Of a DNA stretch of 60,415 nucleotides, positions 40,915 through 56,054 are shown piece by piece; within the stretch, counting starts at the first letter, position 1; every line of letters starts with the position of its first letter. Made by a program: the position numbers and the translations under genes. The stretch is from Rhodococcus ruber NBRC 15591 (GTDB taxonomy: Bacteria; Actinomycetota; Actinomycetes; Mycobacteriales; Mycobacteriaceae): NCBI RefSeq assembly GCF_001894945.1, contig NZ_BCXE01000011.1, forward strand, positions 1 through 60,415, given 5' to 3'. The notes beneath the pieces were generated by a model. It was not told the origin of the DNA. It ran no database searches and worked only from the letters and a program-made list of their open reading frames with translations.

Positions 40915-42756
40915 CTACGGCACCTTCCGGACGGCCCCCTTGTCGGCCGAGGTGGCCAACGCGGCGTAGGCGCGCAGGGCGGTGGTGACCGTGCGCTGCC
41001 GGTCGACCGGCTGCCACGGCCGCTCCGACGCCTCCATCTTGGCGCGCCGCTCGGCGAGAACGGCGTCGTCGACGAGGACCTCGAGGGTGCGCGAGGGAAC
41101 GTCGATCCGGATCCGGTCGCCGTTCTCGAGCAGACCGATGACCCCACCGGACGCAGCTTCGGGCGAGATGTGCCCGATCGACAGCCCGGAGGTGCCACCG
41201 GAGAAGCGGCCGTCGGTGATCAGGGCGCACTGCTTGCCCAGGCCCGCGCCCTTGAGGAACGCGGTGGGGTGCAGCATCTCCTGCATGCCGGGGCCGCCCG
41301 CGGGTCCCTCGTAGCGGACCACCACCACGTCACCGGGCTGCACCTTCTTGCCGAGGATCATCGAGACGGCCTCCTCCTGCGACTCGACGACGAGCGCCGG
41401 GCCCTCGAAGGTGAACAGATCCTCGTCGATGCCGGCGGTCTTGAGGATCGCACCGTCCGGGGCGAGGTTGCCGCGCAGGACGACGAGTCCGCCCTCGACG
41501 GTGTAGGCGTGCTCGACGTCCCGGATGCAGCCGCCTGCGGCGTCGGTGTCCAGCGACGACCAGCGGTTGTCGGTGGAGAAGGGCTCGGTGGTGCGGACGC
41601 CGCCGGGAGCCGCGTGGAACAGCTCGACGGCCTCGTCGGAGGCCTTGCCGGAACGGATGTCCCACGTGTCGAGCCACTCGTCGAAGCTCGCGGTGTGGAC
41701 GGTGGTCACGTCCGTCTCGAGCAGGCCGCCCCGGCGCAGCTCACCGAGGATCGCCGGGATGCCGCCGGCCCGGTGGACGTCCTCCATGTGGTAGTCCGAG
41801 TTGGGGGAGACCTTCGACAGGCACGGCACCTTGCGGCTGATCGCGTCGATCGTGGTGAGGTCGAAGTCGACCTCGCCCTCCTGCGCGGCGGCGAGCGTGT
41901 GCAGCACGGTGTTGGTCGAGCCGCCCATCGCGACGTCGAGCGCCATGGCGTTCCGGAACGCGGCGGGGGAGGCGATGTTGCGCGGCAGGACCGACTCGTC
42001 CTCGTCCCGGTACCAGCGCAGCGCCGCCTCGACGACCGTGGTCCCGGCCCGCTCGAACAGCGCGCGGCGTGCGGAGTGCGTGGCCAGCGTCGAGCCGTTG
42101 CCGGGCAGTGCCAGTCCGAGCGCCTCGGTCAGGCAGTTCATCGAGTTCGCGGTGAACATGCCCGAGCACGACCCGCACGTCGGGCAGGCGCTGCGCTCGA
42201 CCTCGTCGAGGCCCTCGTCGGTGACGGCGTCGTTGGCCGACGCCGAGATCGCCGTGATCAGGTCGGTGGGGGCCTGTGCGACACCGCCGACGACCACCGC
42301 CTTGCCCGCCTCCATCGGACCGCCCGAGACGAACACCGTCGGGATGTTCAGGCGCATCGCAGCGTTGAGCATGCCCGGGGTGATCTTGTCGCAGTTGGAG
42401 ATGCACACCAGCGCGTCGGCGGTGTGCGCGTTGACCATGTATTCCACCGAATCGGCGATGATCTCGCGGCTGGGCAGGGAGTACAGCATGCCGCCGTGAC
42501 CCATGGCGATGCCGTCGTCGACGGCGATGGTGTGGAACTCTCGCGGTACACCGCCCGCGGCCCGGACCGCCTCGGCGACGATGTCGCCGACGTCCTTGAG
42601 GTGGACATGGCCGGGCACGAACTGCGTGTAGGAGTTCGCAATCGCGACGATCGGTTTGCCGAAGTCGGAGTCGGTCATGCCGGTGGCGCGCCACAGGGCG
42701 CGGGCCCCGGCGGCATTGCGTCCGGCGGTGGTGGTGCGTGACCTCAACGGGGGCAT
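40915..42756 (-). CDS. ilvD: Dihydroxy-acid dehydratase (E. coli-type)
   Basis: It dehydrates the dihydroxy acids to 2-keto acids, the step after IlvC in valine/isoleucine synthesis. The 613-residue protein has the cluster cysteines in [11 protein letters not shown] and [21 protein letters not shown]. The overall sequence follows the longer E. coli-like type, usually assigned a [4Fe-4S] cluster, rather than the shorter [2Fe-2S] type. The gene stands on the opposite strand near ilvBNC, as in Corynebacterium glutamicum as I recall. M. tuberculosis keeps its shorter ilvD elsewhere. Active-site blocks [21 protein letters not shown] and [10 protein letters not shown] are intact. Confidence 0.97.
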
Positions 42757-42877
42757 CGGATTCCTCGGGGGCTAGGGCTCTTCGGGCTGCATGCTGCGCG
42801 GGCGCGGCGACACCGGGGGCCGGGCTCCCCCGGGCGGGGCGGGAGCGGGCCTGGGCGACGTCGAATCTACCCGTGTG

Positions 42878-43372
42878 CTATTTCGACTCGACGTCCGCGT
42901 CCGGCTCGGTGTCCGCGGCCTGTTCCCGTGCCTGCGCGTCGTGCGCGGCGGCGTACGGGTCGGTGATGCGCCCGCCGCTGCCCGCGGCGAGCTGGGGGAG
43001 GCGGCCGAACGTGACGACCGGGAGGGGTACCTCGGTGCCGTCGGTGCGGCGCGCGCGTGCCCAGCCCCGCTTGGGGAACCGCAGCCCGTCGAGCTCGTCC
43101 CACGCGAGCGTCCGGGTGGAGAACGCGGATCGGGCCGTGATGCCCTCGGGGCCGACGACGGTGCGCACCCGCAGCACCCACGCGGCGACGAGGAACGGGA
43201 TCACCACCATCCAGCCGAACGCGGCGGGCCAGGCCAGCGCCGGAGAGGCCACTCCGAGCAGCACGAACCCGCACGCGAGCAGGGCGAGCCGGGAAATCTG
43301 GATGACCTGCGGCTGCTGTTCCGCCGTATGGGATGATGGGCGTGGTGGCACGGGCTGCTGTGGAGATGACAC
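42878..43372 (-). CDS. PH-domain membrane protein (Rv3004/CFP6-like)
   Basis: About 164 residues: a Pro/Gln-rich N-terminus, two hydrophobic helices (LALLACGFVLLGVASPALAWP and AFGWMVVIPFLVAAWVL) and a small bacterial PH-like domain (VVGPEGITARSAFSTRTLAWDELDGLRFPKRGWARARRTDGTEVPLPVV). The tail is acidic. Function is unknown. GTG 43372 is chosen because GGGAAG lies about 10 nt upstream. ATG 43399 and GTG 43432 are other in-frame starts. It is divergent from the ilvB leader, with only about 60-100 bp for both promoters. Confidence 0.8.
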   Translation of the reverse strand: MSSPQQPVPPRPSSHTAEQQPQVIQISRLALLACGFVLLGVASPALAWPAAFGWMVVIPFLVAAWVLRVRTVVGPEGITARSAFSTRTLAWDELDGLRFPKRGWARARRTDGTEVPLPVVTFGRLPQLAAGSGGRITDPYAAAHDAQAREQAADTEPDADVESK

Positions 43373-43433
43373 CTCACCATCTTCCCATTGCAGCCGAGGC
43401 ATCTCACATTCTGGGACAGGTGACCGAACCAAG

Positions 43434-43463
43434 TTGACTGTCGGACGTTCGCGCGCCTACCGT
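43434..43463 (+). promoter_or_regulatory. ilvB operon promoter
   Basis: -35 TTGACT (43434-43439) and -10 TACCGT (43458-43463) with an 18-nt spacer. The -10 ends 7 nt before the GTG of the leader peptide, so the mRNA probably begins at that GTG. Confidence 0.8.
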
Positions 43464-43470
43464 CGAGCGC

Positions 43471-43518
43471 GTGAATCAGAATGGGTTGCTCGTAATCGGC
43501 CGGCGCGTCGTCGCCTGA
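43471..43518 (+). CDS. ilvB leader peptide (15 residues)
   Basis: The short frame reads VNQNGLLVIGRRVVA with stop TGA at 43516. It holds seven branched-chain codons in fifteen, as Leu-Leu-Val-Ile and Val-Val plus the GTG start. That is the composition expected of a transcription-attenuation leader. It starts at the predicted transcription start and therefore needs no ribosome binding site. The codons from 43502 to 43511 also form segment 1 of an RNA pairing with 43540-43549. Comparable leaders precede ilvBNC in Corynebacterium. Ribosome stalling here when branched-chain aminoacyl-tRNAs are scarce should allow read-through into ilvB. Confidence 0.85.
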   Translation: MNQNGLLVIGRRVVA

Positions 43519-43586
43519 GCCGCTTCTCGCAACTCGCCCACGACGCGCCACCCTCGTACAGCAGATGCTGCTGACGGGGGTTTTTT
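43502..43586 (+). promoter_or_regulatory. Transcription attenuator of ilvBNC
   Basis: Segment 43502-43511 pairs perfectly over 10 bp with 43540-43549 (1:2 stem). The terminator follows: inner stem 43559-43564 with 43568-43573, outer stem 43551-43557 with 43574-43580 (one G-T pair and one bulged A), then six T at 43581-43586. This is the only T-run terminator in the window. The antiterminator (2:3) pairing is not obvious by eye. Confidence 0.8.
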
Positions 43587-43617
43587 GTTGCCCGGAGCCA
43601 GAACCAGAGGAATCGCA

Positions 43618-45564
43618 GTGAGCGCACCAACCGCAAGGCCTCAACCGTCGCCGCGTAAGCCCGGGGCCGCGGCCCCGTCGCCCGCGGCCGCGGCCGCCCA
43701 GCCCGGTACCCGACGCCAGGTCGCCCCCGAGCGGGTCACCGGCGCCCAGTCGGTGGTCCGAGCCCTCGAGGAGCTCGACGTCGACACGGTCTTCGGCATT
43801 CCGGGCGGTGCGATCCTTCCCGTCTACGATCCGCTGTTCGACTCGCAGAAGGTCCGGCACGTGCTGGTCCGCCACGAGCAGGGCGCGGGCCACGCCGCGA
43901 CCGGATACGCCCAGGCCTCCGGCAAGGTCGGCGTGTGCATGGCCACCTCCGGCCCCGGCGCCACGAACCTCGTCACCCCGCTCGCCGACGCGCAGATGGA
44001 CTCCGTTCCCGTCGTGGCGATCACGGGTCAGGTCGGCCGCGGTCTGATCGGCACCGACGCCTTCCAGGAGGCCGACATCTCGGGCATCACCATGCCCGTC
44101 ACCAAGCACAACTTCCTCGTGACCGACGGAGCCGAGATCCCCCGCGTCCTCGCCGAGGCGTTCTACCTCGCCGCATCCGGCCGTCCGGGGGCCGTCCTGG
44201 TGGACATCCCGAAGGACATCCTGCAGGCCCAGACCACCTTCAGCTGGCCGCCGGAGATGCACCTGCCCGGCTACCGTCCCGTCACCAAGCCGCACGGCAA
44301 GCAGGTCCGTGAGGCCGCACGCCTGATCGCCGAGGCGAAGTCGCCCGTGCTGTACATCGGCGGCGGCGTGATCAAGGCGGAGGCCTCTCCGGAGCTGCTC
44401 GAGCTGGCCGAGCTCACCGGTATCCCGGTCGTCACGACTCTCATGGCCCGCGGCGCCTTCCCCGACACCCATCAGCTCAACTGCGGCATGCCCGGCATGC
44501 ACGGCACCGTCGCGGCGGTCGCCGCCCTCCAGAAGTCCGATCTGCTGATCACGCTCGGTGCACGGTTCGACGACCGCGTCACCGGTCAGCTCGACTCGTT
44601 CGCGCCCGACGCGAAGGTCATCCACGCGGACATCGACCCGGCCGAGATCGGCAAGAACCGGCACGCCGACGTGCCGATCGTGGGTGACTGCAAGGAGGTG
44701 ATCGTCGAGCTGATCGAGGCGATCCGGGCGGATCTCGCGACGGGTACCACGCTCGACTACGCCCAGTGGTGGGAGTACCTCGACGGGATCCGGCGCACCT
44801 ACCCGCTCAGCTACGACCGGCCGGCCGACGGCATGCTCTCGCCGGAGTACGTGATCCAGATGGTCGGCAAGCTCGCCGGACCGGACGCGATCTACTGCGC
44901 CGGCGTCGGGCAGCACCAGATGTGGGCTGCGCAGTTCATCGACTACGAGAAGCCGCGCACCTGGCTCAACTCCGGTGGGCTGGGCACCATGGGCTACGCC
45001 GTGCCGGCGGCCATGGGCGCCAAGATGGGTGTGCCCGACGCCGAGGTGTGGGCCATCGACGGTGACGGCTGCTTCCAGATGACGAACCAGGAGCTGGCGA
45101 CCTGCGCGGTCGAGGGTGTGCCGATCAAGGTCGCACTCATCAACAACGGCAACCTCGGCATGGTCCGGCAGTGGCAGACGCTGTTCTACGAGGAGCGGTA
45201 CTCGAACACCGATCTGTCCACCCACACCCTGCGCATCCCCGACTTCGTCAAGCTGGCCGAGGCTCTCGGCTGTGTCGGCATCCGGGTCGAGCGCGAGGAG
45301 GACGTCGAGGAGGCGATCCGCCGGGCGCAGTCCATCGACGACCGTCCGGTCGTCATCGACTTCATCGTCGGTCAGGACGCCCAGGTGTGGCCGATGGTCG
45401 CCGCCGGCACCAGCAACGACGAGATCATGGCGGCGCGGGGCATCCGTCCGCTCTTCGACGAGGACGAGGCGGCCGCGGAGCCGGCCGTCATCCACGAGGC
45501 ACTCGAGCACGAGCGGCACCCGGAACAGCGCGGTGCCGCAGCACCAGGAGAGGATCGTCAGTGA
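43618..45564 (+). CDS. ilvB: Acetolactate synthase large (catalytic) subunit
   Basis: It condenses pyruvate with pyruvate or 2-ketobutyrate, the first common step of branched-chain synthesis, using ThDP, FAD and Mg. The 648-residue protein has a variable Pro/Ala-rich N-terminus of about 40 residues. The catalytic Glu87 is in [14 protein letters not shown], and the ThDP motif is [14 protein letters not shown] to NNGNLGM. The blocks [16 protein letters not shown] and ARFDDRVTG are typical. The GTG start at 43618 is preceded by AGAGG at 7 nt. It is controlled by the attenuator upstream and is translationally coupled to ilvN. Confidence 0.97.
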
Positions 45565-46064
45565 GCACCAGTCACACCCTCAGCGTTCTCGTCGAGGACA
45601 AGCCGGGCGTGCTGGCCCGCGTGGCGAGCCTGTTCTCCCGCCGCGGGTTCAACATCGAGTCCCTCGCGGTGGGCGGCACCGAGATCCCGGAGATCTCCCG
45701 GATGACGATCGTCGTGACCGTCGACGAGTTTCCGCTCGAGCAGGTGACCAAGCAGCTCAACAAGCTCGTCAACGTCATCAAGATCGTCGAGCAGGAAGAG
45801 GATGCCTCGGTCGCCCGCGAGCTGCTGCTGATCAAGGTGCGGGCGGACGCGAGCGTGCGCACTCAGGTCATCGAGACGGTGAATCTGTTCCGCGCCAAGG
45901 TGATCGACGTCTCGCCCGAATCGCTCACCATCGAGGCCACCGGTACCCGCTCCAAGCTCGACGCCCTGCTGCGGATGCTCGAGCCCTACGGCATCCGCGA
46001 GATCGTGCAGTCCGGGGTCGTCGCGGTCGGACGCGGTCCGAAGTCGATCACGGCCACCCGTTAG
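45561..46064 (+). CDS. ilvN: Acetolactate synthase small (regulatory) subunit
   Basis: The 167-residue subunit activates IlvB and confers valine feedback inhibition. The ACT domain is at the N-terminus: [34 protein letters not shown]. The C-terminal domain contains [17 protein letters not shown] and [19 protein letters not shown]. The GTG start overlaps the ilvB stop (GTGA), giving equal synthesis of both subunits. Confidence 0.97.
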
Positions 46065-46069
46065 CCTGA

Positions 46070-47116
<1,047 letters not shown>

Positions 47117-47132: not shown

Positions 47133-47167
47133 CGACGGCCCGGCACCGCTGTGGTGCCGGGCCGTCG
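47133..47167 (+). terminator. Terminator of the ilvBNC operon
   Basis: A perfect 15-bp stem (47133-47147 with 47153-47167) with a 5-nt GCTGT loop starts 16 nt after the ilvC stop. Confidence 0.9.
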
Positions 47168-47180
47168 GCGTTCCCGGGTG

Positions 47181-47186
47181 GATAAT
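47181..47186 (+). promoter_or_regulatory. -10 box (GATAAT) of the SulP gene
   Basis: GATAAT differs from TATAAT at one base and ends 6 nt before ATG 47193, so a leaderless mRNA is predicted. Confidence 0.6.
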
Positions 47187-47192
47187 GCCCTG

Positions 47193-48971
47193 ATGTCCTG
47201 GGGTCTGGGAAAGCTGCCGGGGGTCGCCGTTGCCCGCACCTACCGGCGGGAGTGGCTGCGCCCCGACCTCACCGCCGGTCTGGCGCTCACCGCGCTGCTC
47301 GTCCCCGCGGGCATGGGCTACGCGACGGCGGCCGGCCTGCCCGCCTACGCCGGGTTGTACGCCACGATCGTCCCGCTGCTGGTGTATGCCCTGCTGGGGC
47401 CGTCGAAAGTGCTTGTGCTCGGTCCCGATTCGGCCCTCGCGCCGCTCATCGCCGCGGCGGTGCTCCCGCTCGCCGCGACCGGCGATCCACAGGAGGCCCT
47501 GGCCCTCGCGGGAGTCCTGGCCCTGCTCGTGGGTGTGATCCTCGTCGCCGCCGGTTTCCTGCGGCTCGGCTTCGTCACCGAACTGCTGTCCAAACCGATC
47601 AGGCTCGGCTACCTCAACGGCATCGCGCTGGTCGTCGTGGTGGGGCAGCTGCCGACACTGTTCGGCTTCGCGATCGACGAACCGGGTCTGCCCCAGGACC
47701 TCGCCGCGATCGTCCGCGCGGTCGCCGCGGGTGACGTCGACCCCGTCGCCACCGCCGTCGGGGTGACGTCCCTGGTGGTGATCGTGGCGTTCCGCCTCCT
47801 GCGGGCGCGCATCCCGGGTGTCCTGGTCGCCGTGGCCGGAGCGTGTGGGGTGTCCGCGCTGCTGGGCCTGACGGAGCGGATCGCCATGGTCGGGGCGCTG
47901 CCCTCCGGGTTGCCGGCACCGTCCGTGGCCGCGGTGAGCTGGGCCGACGTGCTCGCGCTGCTCGGCCCGGCAGCCGGCATCGCGCTCATCGCGTTCGCGG
48001 ACACGGGGGTGCTCTCGCGGACCTTCGCGGCCCGCCGCGGCGACGACGTGGACGGCAGTACCGAGATGAAGGCCATCGGCGCCGCCAATGTCGCGACCGG
48101 TCTGTTCGGGGGATTCCCCATCTCGGCCAGCTCGTCCCGCACGCCCGTCGCCGAGCAGAACGGCGCCCGCACCCAGCTCGTCGGGGTGGTCGGCGCCGTC
48201 GCTGTCCTGCTGTTCGTGCTGCTCGCCCCCGGCGTGACCGCCTATCTGCCCGAGGCGACGCTCGCAGCGGTCGTCCTGGTCGCGGCCTCGGCGCTCATCG
48301 ACGTGCGCGGGGTGGTCCGCATGTGGCGGATGAGCCGGATCGAGGCCGGCCTCGCGGCGGCGGCCTTCCTCGGGGTGGCGCTCGTCGGAGTTCTGGAGGG
48401 GATCCTCGTCGCCATCGGCCTCTCGTTCGTCGCCGTCGTGGGGCACGCATGGTCGCCGTACCGCACCGAGCTCGTCGAGCTCACCCGTGTCGCGGGCTTC
48501 CACGACATCAACCGTCACCCCGAAGGGCATCGCATCCCCGGTCTGCTGCTGGTGCGGTTCGACGCCCCCCTGTTCTTCGCCAACGGTTCGATCTTCGACG
48601 ACTACGTCCGCTCGCTGGTCGCGCAGTCGCCCGAGCCGGTCGAATGGGTCGTGATCGCTGCCGAACCGATCACCGGTCTCGACACCACCGCCGTCGACGA
48701 ACTCGTCGACCTGGACCGATACCTCGCAGGCAGGAAGATCCGCCTGGCCTTCGCCGCCATGAAGGGGCCCATCAAGGACCGGCTCGTACAGTTCGAGGTG
48801 GGGGACCGGTTCACCCCCGACCGCTTCTATCCCACTGTGCGGACAGCGGTCGTCGCGTTCCGGCACCGCGCGGCGTCGTCGTCCCCGGAACCCGCGCCGC
48901 GCGGTAACCCCGATCACACCGCGGGTCGCGTGCCGAAGTCGCTGCCGCGCAAGAGAAATCGTCGGCGCTGA
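47193..48971 (+). CDS. SulP-family anion permease with STAS domain
   Basis: A 592-residue inner-membrane transporter. The N-terminal part matches the SulP core: DLTAGLALTALLVPAGMGYATAAGLPAYAGLYATIVP, and FGGFPISASSSRTPVAEQNGARTQLVGV. About ten to twelve transmembrane segments fill residues 25-430. The C-terminal STAS domain (about 440-570) includes LLLVRFDAPLFFANGSIFDDYV and ITGLDTTAVDELVDL. Sulfate is the usual guess; bicarbonate or dicarboxylates are also transported by this family. A basic tail (KSLPRKRNRRR) ends the protein. Confidence 0.93.
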   Translation: MSWGLGKLPGVAVARTYRREWLRPDLTAGLALTALLVPAGMGYATAAGLPAYAGLYATIVPLLVYALLGPSKVLVLGPDSALAPLIAAAVLPLAATGDPQEALALAGVLALLVGVILVAAGFLRLGFVTELLSKPIRLGYLNGIALVVVVGQLPTLFGFAIDEPGLPQDLAAIVRAVAAGDVDPVATAVGVTSLVVIVAFRLLRARIPGVLVAVAGACGVSALLGLTERIAMVGALPSGLPAPSVAAVSWADVLALLGPAAGIALIAFADTGVLSRTFAARRGDDVDGSTEMKAIGAANVATGLFGGFPISASSSRTPVAEQNGARTQLVGVVGAVAVLLFVLLAPGVTAYLPEATLAAVVLVAASALIDVRGVVRMWRMSRIEAGLAAAAFLGVALVGVLEGILVAIGLSFVAVVGHAWSPYRTELVELTRVAGFHDINRHPEGHRIPGLLLVRFDAPLFFANGSIFDDYVRSLVAQSPEPVEWVVIAAEPITGLDTTAVDELVDLDRYLAGRKIRLAFAAMKGPIKDRLVQFEVGDRFTPDRFYPTVRTAVVAFRHRAASSSPEPAPRGNPDHTAGRVPKSLPRKRNRRR

Positions 48972-49184: not shown

Positions 49185-50777
49185 GTGAGCCAGAATGGCC
49201 GTCCCGTTGTCCTGATCGCCGACAAGCTGGCGCAGTCGACCGTCGATGCGCTCGGTGACGGCGTCGAGGTGCGCTGGGTCGACGGCCCGGACCGTCCCGC
49301 GCTGCTCGCGGCGGTGCCCGAGGCGGACGCCCTGCTGGTCCGTTCGGCGACCACGGTCGACGCCGAGGTCCTCGCCGCCGCCACGAAGCTGAAGATCGTC
49401 GGTCGCGCCGGCGTCGGCCTCGACAACGTCGACATCCCGGCCGCCACCGAACGCGGTGTGATGGTCGTCAACGCTCCGACGTCCAACATCCATTCGGCCG
49501 CCGAGCACGCCGTGGCGCTGTTGATGGCCACGGCCCGGCAGATCCCCGCCGCCGACCGCACGCTGCGTGAGCGCACCTGGAAGCGGTCGAGCTTCAACGG
49601 CACCGAGATCCTGGGCAAGACCGTCGGCGTGGTCGGCCTGGGCCGGATCGGACAGCTGTTCGCCCAGCGCCTCGCCGCCTTCGAGACCCACGTCATCGCC
49701 TACGACCCCTACCTGCCGCCGGCCCGTGCCGCCCAGCTGGGGATCGAACTGGTCGACATCGACGAGCTGATCGAGCGCGCCGACTTCATCTCCGTGCACC
49801 TGCCCAAGACCAAGGAGACGGCGGGGCTGATCAACGCCGAGCGGCTCGCGCGGGCCAAGGACGGCGTCATCATCGTCAACGCCGCCCGCGGTGGTCTCAT
49901 CGACGAGGACGCCCTCCACGACGCCCTCGTCTCCGGCAAGGTTCGGGCCGCCGGCCTCGACGTCTTCCACTCCGAACCCTGCACGGACTCGAAGCTGTTC
50001 GACCTCGACAACACCGTCGTCACCCCGCACCTGGGCGCCTCCACGACCGAGGCCCAGGACCGCGCCGGCACCGACGTCGCCAAGAGCGTGCTGCTGGCTC
50101 TGGCCGGCGAGTTCGTCCCGGACGCCGTGAACGTCTCCGGCGGTCCGGTCGGCGAGGAGGTCGCACCGTGGCTCGAGCTCGTGCGCAAGCTCGGTCTCAT
50201 CGCCGGCACGCTGTCGCCGGAGGCGGTGCAGAACGTGCAGGTCGTCGCCAGCGGTGAGCTGTCCGCGGAGAATGTCGAGATCCTGGGCCTCGCGGCACTG
50301 CGCGGTCTGTTCTCCGCCAGCAGCGACGAGCCGGTCACCTTCGTCAACGCCCCGGCCCTCGCCGAGCAGCGCGGCGTCAGTGTGGAGGTCGACAAGCACA
50401 GCGAGGCCTCCACGCACCGCAGCGCGGTGGAGGTCCGCGCCGTGGCCGCCGACGGACTCGTCACCACAGTCACCGGCGCGCTGACCGGCCTGCAGCAGAT
50501 CGAGAAGATCGTCAACATCAACGGCCGCAGCTTCGATCTGCGCGCCGAGGGCCACAACCTCGTCGTCCACTACGAGGACCGGCCGGGCGTGCTCGGGGTC
50601 CTCGGCACGGTCCTCGGCAACGCCGGGATCGACATCCAGGCGGCGGCGCTGAGCCAGGACGTCGAAGGACCCGGCGCCACGGTGATCCTGCGGGTCGACC
50701 GGGTCGTCGGCGACGCCGAGGTCGCCCAGATCGTGGAGCAGCTCGACGCCCGCGTCGCGCAGGTCGACCTGTCCTGA
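49185..50777 (+). CDS. serA: D-3-phosphoglycerate dehydrogenase
   Basis: It oxidises 3-phosphoglycerate with NAD, the first step to serine; serB at the other end of the window does the last. The 530-residue long form has the NAD motif VGVVGLGRIGQLFAQRL, catalytic NAARGGLIDEDAL and PHLGAST, then the intervening ASB domain (about 320-450) and a C-terminal ACT domain (VHYEDRPGVLGVLGTVLGNAGIDI). This is the serine-inhibited actinobacterial type. The GTG start has GGGGAG about 9 nt upstream. Confidence 0.97.
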   Translation: MSQNGRPVVLIADKLAQSTVDALGDGVEVRWVDGPDRPALLAAVPEADALLVRSATTVDAEVLAAATKLKIVGRAGVGLDNVDIPAATERGVMVVNAPTSNIHSAAEHAVALLMATARQIPAADRTLRERTWKRSSFNGTEILGKTVGVVGLGRIGQLFAQRLAAFETHVIAYDPYLPPARAAQLGIELVDIDELIERADFISVHLPKTKETAGLINAERLARAKDGVIIVNAARGGLIDEDALHDALVSGKVRAAGLDVFHSEPCTDSKLFDLDNTVVTPHLGASTTEAQDRAGTDVAKSVLLALAGEFVPDAVNVSGGPVGEEVAPWLELVRKLGLIAGTLSPEAVQNVQVVASGELSAENVEILGLAALRGLFSASSDEPVTFVNAPALAEQRGVSVEVDKHSEASTHRSAVEVRAVAADGLVTTVTGALTGLQQIEKIVNINGRSFDLRAEGHNLVVHYEDRPGVLGVLGTVLGNAGIDIQAAALSQDVEGPGATVILRVDRVVGDAEVAQIVEQLDARVAQVDLS

Positions 50778-55678: not shown

Positions 55679-55750
55679 TGGGGTATGGTGTAATTGGCAA
55701 CACAGCTGATTCTGGTTCAGCCATTCTAGGTTCGAGTCCTGGTACCCCAG
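55679..55750 (+). tRNA. tRNA-Gln (CTG anticodon)
   Basis: The 72-nt cloverleaf has acceptor TGGGGTA/TACCCCA, D-arm with GTGTAATTGGCAACAC, anticodon arm GCTGA-TTCTGGT-TCAGC (anticodon CTG), and T-arm with TTCGAGT. Discriminator is G55750. CCA is not encoded. A possible promoter lies upstream: -35 TTGTAA at 55589 and -10 TAACCT at 55614. Confidence 0.97.
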
Positions 55751-55842
55751 CGTCTGCCCGGTGATTTTGTCACCGAGCCTCGGCCGGTTAAGCTGGCTGA
55801 GCCTCCGCCGCAAGGTGGGGGAGTACCGGAGAAGAAGTTCCT

Positions 55843-55915
55843 GGCCCCGTCGTCTAGCGGCCTAGGACGCCGCCCTCTCAAGGCGGTAGCGCGGGTTCAA
55901 ATCCCGTCGGGGCTA
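55843..55915 (+). tRNA. tRNA-Glu (CTC anticodon), copy 1
   Basis: A 73-nt tRNA with acceptor GGCCCCG/CGGGGCT (one G-T pair), anticodon loop CTCTCAA giving anticodon CTC, and T-loop TTCAAAT. Discriminator A55915 is followed by an encoded CCA (55916-55918), unlike the tRNA-Gln next to it. Confidence 0.98.
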
Positions 55916-55925
55916 CCACGGAAGG

Positions 55926-55949
55926 CCCTTCGATCGCGAGTTCGAAGGG
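55926..55949 (+). terminator. Hairpin between the tRNA-Glu copies
   Basis: An 8-bp perfect stem, CCCTTCGA (55926-55933) with TCGAAGGG (55942-55949), and an 8-nt loop. It could terminate or process the first tRNA-Glu transcript. Confidence 0.55.
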
Positions 55950-55977
55950 TGTTCTTCTCCGAGCAGTGAAAGTTCCT

Positions 55978-56050
55978 GGCCCCGTCGTCTAGCGGCCTAG
56001 GACGCCGCCCTCTCAAGGCGGTAGCGCGGGTTCAAATCCCGTCGGGGCTA
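55978..56050 (+). tRNA. tRNA-Glu (CTC anticodon), copy 2
   Basis: Identical in all 73 nt to the copy at 55843, again with an encoded CCA (56051-56053). It ends 4 nt before a very strong hairpin. Confidence 0.98.
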
Positions 56051-56054
56051 CCAA

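Follow-up and report, generated by a model that had tools for sequence, protein, structure and literature searches.

A probable leader-peptide attenuator ahead of ilvBNC in Rhodococcus ruber, with a leader peptide predicted to be translated from the 5' end of the mRNA

Sequence analysis of a 60,415-base stretch of DNA from Rhodococcus ruber NBRC 15591 (the window, positions 1 to 60,415 of contig NZ_BCXE01000011.1) indicated that ilvBNC is preceded by a leader-peptide transcription attenuator, the peptide of which would be translated from the 5' end of the mRNA or from a point at most one nucleotide away; the probability of this reading is put at roughly 0.8. That transcription is attenuated ahead of ilvBNC, as the first-pass annotation of this DNA had claimed, is very probable from the gene context, the conserved codons for branched-chain amino acids (BCAA), the covarying helices P1 and T and the published genetics of related bacteria. 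The features concerned are as follows.

43434..43439, plus strand: -35 hexamer TTGACT, read from the sequence; the combined promoter-start pattern is unique in the window
43458..43463, plus strand: -10 hexamer TACCGT, separated from the -35 by an 18-nt spacer, read from the sequence; pattern unique in the window
43471..43518, plus strand: leader peptide frame GTG...TGA, MNQNGLLVIGRRVVA, read from the sequence and kept in orthologues; the +1 is predicted on the G of the GTG or beside it
43486..43497, plus strand: regulatory codons TTG CTC GTA ATC (Leu-Leu-Val-Ile), with GTA at 43492-43494; the GTA is kept in leaders
43495..43524, plus strand: P0, a possible, weakly supported local hairpin (43495-43507 with 43512-43524), exclusive with P1, from folding and alignment
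43502..43511, plus strand: 5' arm of P1, GGCGCGTCGT, inside the codons for RRVV, from folding and covariation
43540..43549, plus strand: 3' arm of P1, ACGACGCGCC, directly against the terminator, from folding and covariation
43550..43586, plus strand: intrinsic terminator T, stem 43550-43581 with first GC pair 43551/43580, 3-nt loop and T-run 43581-43586, from folding and covariation
43618..45564, plus strand: ilvB, acetolactate synthase large subunit, frame from GTG 43618 (Pfam TPP_enzyme N, M, C)
45558..46064, plus strand: ilvN, small subunit (Pfam ALS_ss_C, ACT); coordinates are those of the stretch searched
46109..47116, plus strand: ilvC, ketol-acid reductoisomerase (Pfam KARI_N, KARI_C); coordinates are those of the stretch searched

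The promoter, the 15-codon frame, the 10-bp pairing and the T-tailed stem of the first-pass annotation were all found as claimed, and it is their conservation, described below, that lifts the element above chance. Seven nucleotides (CGAGCGC) separate the -10 hexamer TACCGT from the GTG at 43471, and the pattern TTGAC-N16-20-TANNNT-N6-8-RTG gave one match on both strands of the 60,415-base window against 0.04 expected. Simple promoter and terminator scans over 42700-45600 detected nothing and thus missed the terminator of the element too. In Rfam searches, no family reached its gathering score in the leader of the window, and at E<=1 one weak minus-strand match was noted (Proteo-phage-1, 18.7 bits against a gathering score of 42).

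Among the named IlvB proteins fetched, the closest to that of the window was from Rhodococcus zopfii (91%). Pfam matches identified a bacterial PH-domain protein (bPH_6, 42878-43432, minus strand) and ilvD (40915-42756, minus strand), both running in the opposite direction to ilvB; a possible TTG start of the PH-domain frame at 43432 adjoins the -35 hexamer of ilvB, so that the two promoter regions would overlap. On the other side of ilvC, a frame at 47151-48971, which we take from its sequence to be a SulP-like transporter, precedes a frame at 49185-50777 that is presumably serA-like. Genes for tRNA-Gln and two tRNA-Glu stand in tandem at 55679-56053.

A DNA match to 43431-43620 was present in 261 of 301 family genomes, the genome of the window included. 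A second match in this genome (G000:C16, 28 bases) was judged to be due to chance. Eighteen of the 40 family genomes that gave no DNA match were examined and a BCAA leader was noted in 15, the loci L176, L177 and L181 being without one by the criteria used. A covariance model gave a single match at E<=0.1 in the genome of the window, the next having E 0.19, and, under stricter filters, matched 16 of the 296 genomes that thinly sampled the phylum; because nine of the 16 belong to the family (the genome of the window among them), the model mostly sees near relatives. Similar leaders were readable in Streptomyces, Pseudonocardiales and Micromonosporales.

Leaders for comparison were drawn from 148 upstream regions, 24 of which had no leader at first. 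A pattern that required TANNNT recovered 17 of these, giving 141 leaders, from which L032, L038, L043 and L062 were excluded as wrong calls to leave 137 (125 distinct). Distances and folds were taken from 135 (123 distinct) after exclusion of L034 and L067, for which the P1 call failed. L015, found by eye, stands outside the 137; L036, L059, L063, L066, L078 and L079 remained without a leader, and L017 and L030 lacked upstream sequence. For the alignment (A1), 46 of 87 Mycobacteriales leaders were kept that were less than 93% alike.

Helix P1 consists of 10 bp between GGCGCGTCGT (43502-43511) and ACGACGCGCC (43540-43549), and T folded alone gave -20.4 kcal/mol. A stem followed by a run of T exists as had been annotated for 43551-43586, but its coordinates required correction in that the stem closes at 43550/43581 and the T-run occupies 43581-43586. 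The checks proposed in the first-pass annotation included a fold of 43471-43600 and an alignment of leaders from relatives for covariation. The former was modestly better than shuffled sequences, with a z of only -1.76 and 9 of 200 shuffles as good. The latter gave a clearer answer: P1 and T covary. Thus, in the 46 distinct Mycobacteriales leaders, 92.2% of cells at P1 and T positions were paired as compared with 36-52% (maximum 51.9%) when the structure was slid by 1-3 columns, a comparison that favours the unslid version since one of the aligned sequences supplied the structure. Changes on both sides were noted in 9 of 24 pairs (5/10 in P1, 4/14 in T), and one of five covariation measures, the number of pair types, did not exceed its shuffles (155/500). 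The element is therefore judged to stand above chance because of its conservation, the lone fold being only moderate.

For P0, 82.0% of cells paired in the alignment against at most 43.0% in slid versions. A role for P0 as a universal anti-antiterminator was considered and rejected, as the P0 region of the window was no better than shuffles (z -0.1). A z below -1 for this region was found in 31/76 Mycobacteriales, 5/8 Pseudonocardiales, 4/25 Streptomyces and 0/5 Micromonosporales/Glycomyces leaders.

The leader frame, MNQNGLLVIGRRVVA, has 15 codons from the GTG, 7 nt past the -10, to the TGA at 43516-43518, and within these 15 codons ahead of ilvBNC it encodes LLVI and VV; the BCAA codons are conserved in relatives. 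An in-frame GTA was present in 137/137 leaders analysed (125 distinct), a count that, like the others given here, does not represent independent events, many of the leaders being from close relatives. In six genes of the window, GTA accounts for 2 of 311 Val codons and TTG for 5 of 279 Leu codons. The distance from the first base of the last GTA to the GCGC core of P1 was 11 nt in 128/135 leaders (116/123 distinct), with a range of 10-14, while in the same 135 leaders the stop codon fell anywhere from -3 to +34 nt relative to the core and the start codon 26 to 74 nt upstream of it. The codons and P1 are kept together by shared descent, not by selection alone.

A constant spacing from GTA to P1 throughout the Actinobacteria was rejected, since in genus g3, which is probably Corynebacterium, the 10 leaders with GTA had distances of 7 to 19 nt to the first GGCG or GCGC; another g3 leader, L186, has no GTA. 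In three Micromonosporales leaders (L027, L033 and L037), the frame closes with the BCAA codons, directly followed by the stop, and the start of P1 falls within the stop codon or beside it; the stop has shifted while GTA remained close to P1.

The effect of ribosome position on P1 was modeled by masking the positions under the ribosome in RNA that extended to 43561. With L6, L7 or V8 in the A site the mean P1 pair probability was 0.49-1.00, and with V13 or the stop codon in the A site it was 0.00, for leading edges P+8 to P+16; with the ribosome at I9 it ranged from 1.00 to 0.01 as set by the leading edge chosen. Survival of P1 while the ribosome waits at L6 to V8 and its loss at V13 or the stop is the behaviour expected of an antiterminator, and the antiterminator is probably P1 itself. 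In M. tuberculosis, replacement of LVVI by AAAA is reported to have abolished induction, and a short transcript of about 120 nt to be abundant (PMC13236596); the modeled dependence of P1 on ribosome position agrees with the former result.

How P1 would antagonize T is a separate question. In unconstrained folds, P1 and T coexisted in 115/135 leaders (104/123 distinct), that of the window included, which indicates that P1 does not exclude T by means of shared bases. The gap between the last pair of P1 and the first GC pair of T was 0-2 nt in 117/125 distinct leaders when P1 was allowed to overlap T (72/76 Mycobacteriales, 25/25 Streptomyces, 8/8 Pseudonocardiales, 4/6 Micromonosporales/Glycomyces and 8/10 others); the remaining junctions comprised overlaps of 1-3 nt in seven leaders and a gap of 5 in one (L034, with the failed P1 call). 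When P1 was forced to end before T, and T was counted with its closing A-U and G-U pairs, the gap was 0-2 nt in 135/137, the P1 loop in these 137 leaders varying from 3 to 49 nt. In the window, P1 ends 1 nt before the first GC pair of T. With this gap, the overlap model published for C. glutamicum (PMC11857589), as it is described there, does not transfer directly. In three mycobacterial leaders (L008, L012 and L018), P1 is lengthened to 17 bp and includes three C from the base of the terminator, so that the two overlap naturally.

Presumably, then, either a small extension of P1 by G43498-C43553 and G43499-C43552 works or P1 acts by abutting T. This 2-bp extension could take terminator bases, at realistic edges for Leu stalls only; a ribosome at GTA would cover G43498 and G43499 at edges of P+9 or more, though not at P+8. 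The CC of the terminator is invariant in the aligned set and so gives no covariation signal for the GG:CC extension. As a universal device the extension was rejected, being predicted in Mycobacteriales and Streptomyces and hardly in Pseudonocardiales. A pairing of the leader CTCGT with the 3' arm of T, seen by eye, was dropped because the waiting ribosome would cover CTCGT.

Taken together, the predicted course of events is as follows. RNA polymerase would begin on G43471 or on its neighbour, and the ribosome would be loaded at the 5' GUG with no Shine-Dalgarno site involved. If Leu, Val and Ile are ample, the ribosome would reach the UGA at 43516 and cover the 5' arm of P1, T would form and the transcript would end near 43586. 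If charged tRNA for Leu or Val runs low, the ribosome would wait at TTG-CTC-GTA with its leading edge at about the start of P1; P1 (43502-43511:43540-43549) would then form against the base of T and weaken it, and ilvBNC would be transcribed. During a Val stall at GTA, the Gs of the extension would be covered unless the edge is only at P+8, so that P1 would act by abutting T.

A broader proposal, which is speculative and rather doubtful, is that P1, in the majority of the actinobacterial ilvB attenuators analysed, abuts T with no shared bases and, as a rigid helix, would not fit into the RNA exit channel, which would keep the lower stem of T from closing at the U-run, the rare GUA being set 11 nt before the P1 core such that a waiting ribosome just uncovers P1. 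If true, this would be an attenuator in which contact, and not competition between base pairs, does the switching and which a ribosome loaded at the 5' end would feed, and it would add a way to block termination that needs no shared bases. The codon-to-helix spacing and the helix-to-terminator junction are in any case now testable quantities.

The principal alternative is a classical attenuator of the trp type, in which P1 would be the 1:2 pause or protector helix and another pairing would sequester an arm of the terminator. This is possible though on balance unlikely. Evidence on such a pairing came from the predicted pairing of the first 6 nt of the T 5' arm with upstream RNA before the 3' arm of T is made. 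In 76 distinct Mycobacteriales leaders the values were 0.44 with no ribosome, 0.34 with the ribosome at the codon before GTA, 0.03 at GTA and 0.29 at the stop, the corresponding values for 25 Streptomyces leaders being 0.67, 0.32, 0.00 and 0.21. The control, E. coli trp (first 8 nt of the arm), gave 0.05 with no ribosome, 0.62 at either Trp codon and 0.03 at the stop. Thus, a 2:3 helix of the trp type that takes the T 5' arm during a stall at GTA was absent in folding (0.03 as opposed to 0.62), and the modeled values for no ribosome, GTA and stop are in the wrong order for a simple switch. Likewise, the T 5' arm of Pseudonocardiales leaders was paired at 0.05-0.08, either without a ribosome or at a Leu or Val stall, which speaks against sequestration through the GG:CC extension in that group. 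The earlier remark that a 2:3 antiterminator is not evident therefore holds insofar as the trp-type signature is missing at GTA; what it passed over is that the 10-bp helix it had listed, P1, is itself the likely antiterminator.

Some findings nevertheless favour a trp-type switch. For the C. glutamicum leader, both its Val codons and its start codon are reported to matter, and loss of the start codon resulted in 80% lower expression (PMC11857589); this runs against the model preferred here, as P1 could then form freely, and is expected if an untranslated leader terminates. In the model published in the same source, P1 and T overlap, and for Corynebacterium the terminator's right shoulder has been suggested to pair with the P1 loop (PMC10272879), which would make a pseudoknot when P1 is present. 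Of the 15 leaders from family genomes that gave no DNA match (four genera), 13 were analysed, with poor calls for L182, L187 and L188, and P1 overlapped T by 1-7 nt in 10.

The attenuator model outlined above includes a leaderless start of the peptide, which the first-pass annotation had also put forward. For the window this is likely by analogy, from promoter geometry and from the transcription starts mapped in relatives. In all 18 Mycobacteriales loci selected through their IlvB protein, a TANNNT hexamer was found 6-8 nt upstream of an in-frame RTG, a scan detecting it in 17 and inspection by eye in the other (L015). In the larger set, TANNNT lay 6-8 nt before the start in 76/76 distinct Mycobacteriales leaders, a figure to which the choice of start contributed by favouring that geometry, as did the 17 loci that had been found through a pattern requiring TANNNT before the start. 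No Shine-Dalgarno-like core was found between -16 and -4 in any of these 76 leaders, whereas, once 13 ambiguous locus names were excluded, 41 other leaders included 27 with such a core, 25 of the 27 being from Streptomyces. Both the promoter geometry, for all its bias in the 76, and the lack of a Shine-Dalgarno-like core weigh against a leadered transcript, with a +1 upstream of 43471 and a peptide started from a normal or internal site, and this alternative is accordingly very unlikely.

In Streptomyces, the Shine-Dalgarno-like core falls within or adjoins the hexamer taken for the -10, which in most loci is GAGGGT. At Streptomyces loci among L039-L077, GAGGGT, situated 7 nt upstream of the leader ATG, fits as a -10 but also resembles a Shine-Dalgarno core, a likeness that could mislead annotation.

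Published data for relatives point in the same direction as the promoter geometry. The ilvB leader of C. diphtheriae is reported to have its transcription start at the leader start and to be leaderless (PMC5784534), IlvL of S. lividans was called leaderless by mapping of transcription starts (PMC8079986), and for C. glutamicum a +1 one nucleotide from the start codon of the leader is cited (PMC11857589); in mycobacteria, a 5' ATG or GTG was described as necessary and sufficient for leaderless translation (PMC4633059). With leaderless ilvB leaders thus already in print, the arrangement is not new, and the description of it as unusual could not be upheld. A probably leaderless leader peptide before ilvB is instead the usual arrangement in the Mycobacteriales loci examined and not the curiosity of one genome.

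Control linked to translation or Rho was also considered, in which Rho or the delivery of ribosomes, and not a hairpin switch, would set ilvB expression and the leader peptide would keep ribosomes on the RNA. Codon changes in the ilvB leader of S. coelicolor, cited as having had no effect (PMC1262725), would suit such control and count against the attenuator model preferred here. It is nonetheless highly improbable, given the strong intrinsic terminator with its U-run kept in the 46 aligned leaders and the M. tuberculosis short transcript, which is reported to end inside the leader with a U-tract end marked +126 (PMC13236596). Least probable of all is an untranslated GTG frame in a structured RNA that senses something else, the codons being a by-product of the stem, for although the RRV codons lie within P1 and no Rfam family reached its gathering score here, the start and stop stay in frame as distances vary, the rare GTA is retained and relatives have lacZ or ribosome-footprint evidence of translation (PMC13236596, PMC11857589).

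Among open-licence publications searched by title and the start of the abstract, no paper on an ilvB leader in Rhodococcus and none on an abutting-helix antiterminator was noted. Among the closest known systems is the ilvBNC attenuator of C. glutamicum with its IlvL (the ilvB-II motif of the genus), which is likewise described as having a 15-residue BCAA peptide, a P1-like helix across the coding region, a terminator and ilvBNC, its start codon being placed at the +1 or beside it, as is predicted for the window. The differences are that its antiterminator and terminator are said to have bases in common whereas P1 of the window ends 1 nt before the first GC pair, and that the peptide and its spacing to P1 differ. 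The Corynebacterium ilvB-II motif, compared here with the text of PMC10272879 and not with its model, has two stems, P1 and P2 (the terminator), with an upstream reading frame across P1; in the window, likewise, P1 spans the end of the frame and is followed by T. The ilvB1NC attenuator of M. tuberculosis, as presented in PMC13236596, shares LVVI codons with GUA and a terminator before ilvB1 and has a response to starvation such as is predicted here, and other Mycobacterium leaders align with that of the window while having longer or shifted peptides.

S. lividans IlvL, MRTRILVLGKRVG, has a reported leaderless start (PMC8079986) like that predicted for the window. Streptomyces loci fetched for comparison encode the same peptide, use the codons CTC-GTA-CTT and have a GCGCGTC helix lying against the terminator; these loci differ from the window in having GAGGGT at the place of the -10 in most cases read and in the shorter peptide. 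Candidate actinobacterial ilvB leader peptides were predicted together with a terminator in 2005 (PMC1262725), in the available text of which promoter position, P1/T junction and codon-to-helix spacing do not figure. With the E. coli trp attenuator the element has in common the position of a ribosome over a coding helix and an intrinsic terminator, the difference being that the trp helix takes the 5' arm of the terminator (0.62) whereas leaders of the type found in the window have no such pairing at GTA. Leader-peptide switches of ilvB are thus already known from related bacteria, and the element of the window very probably joins them.
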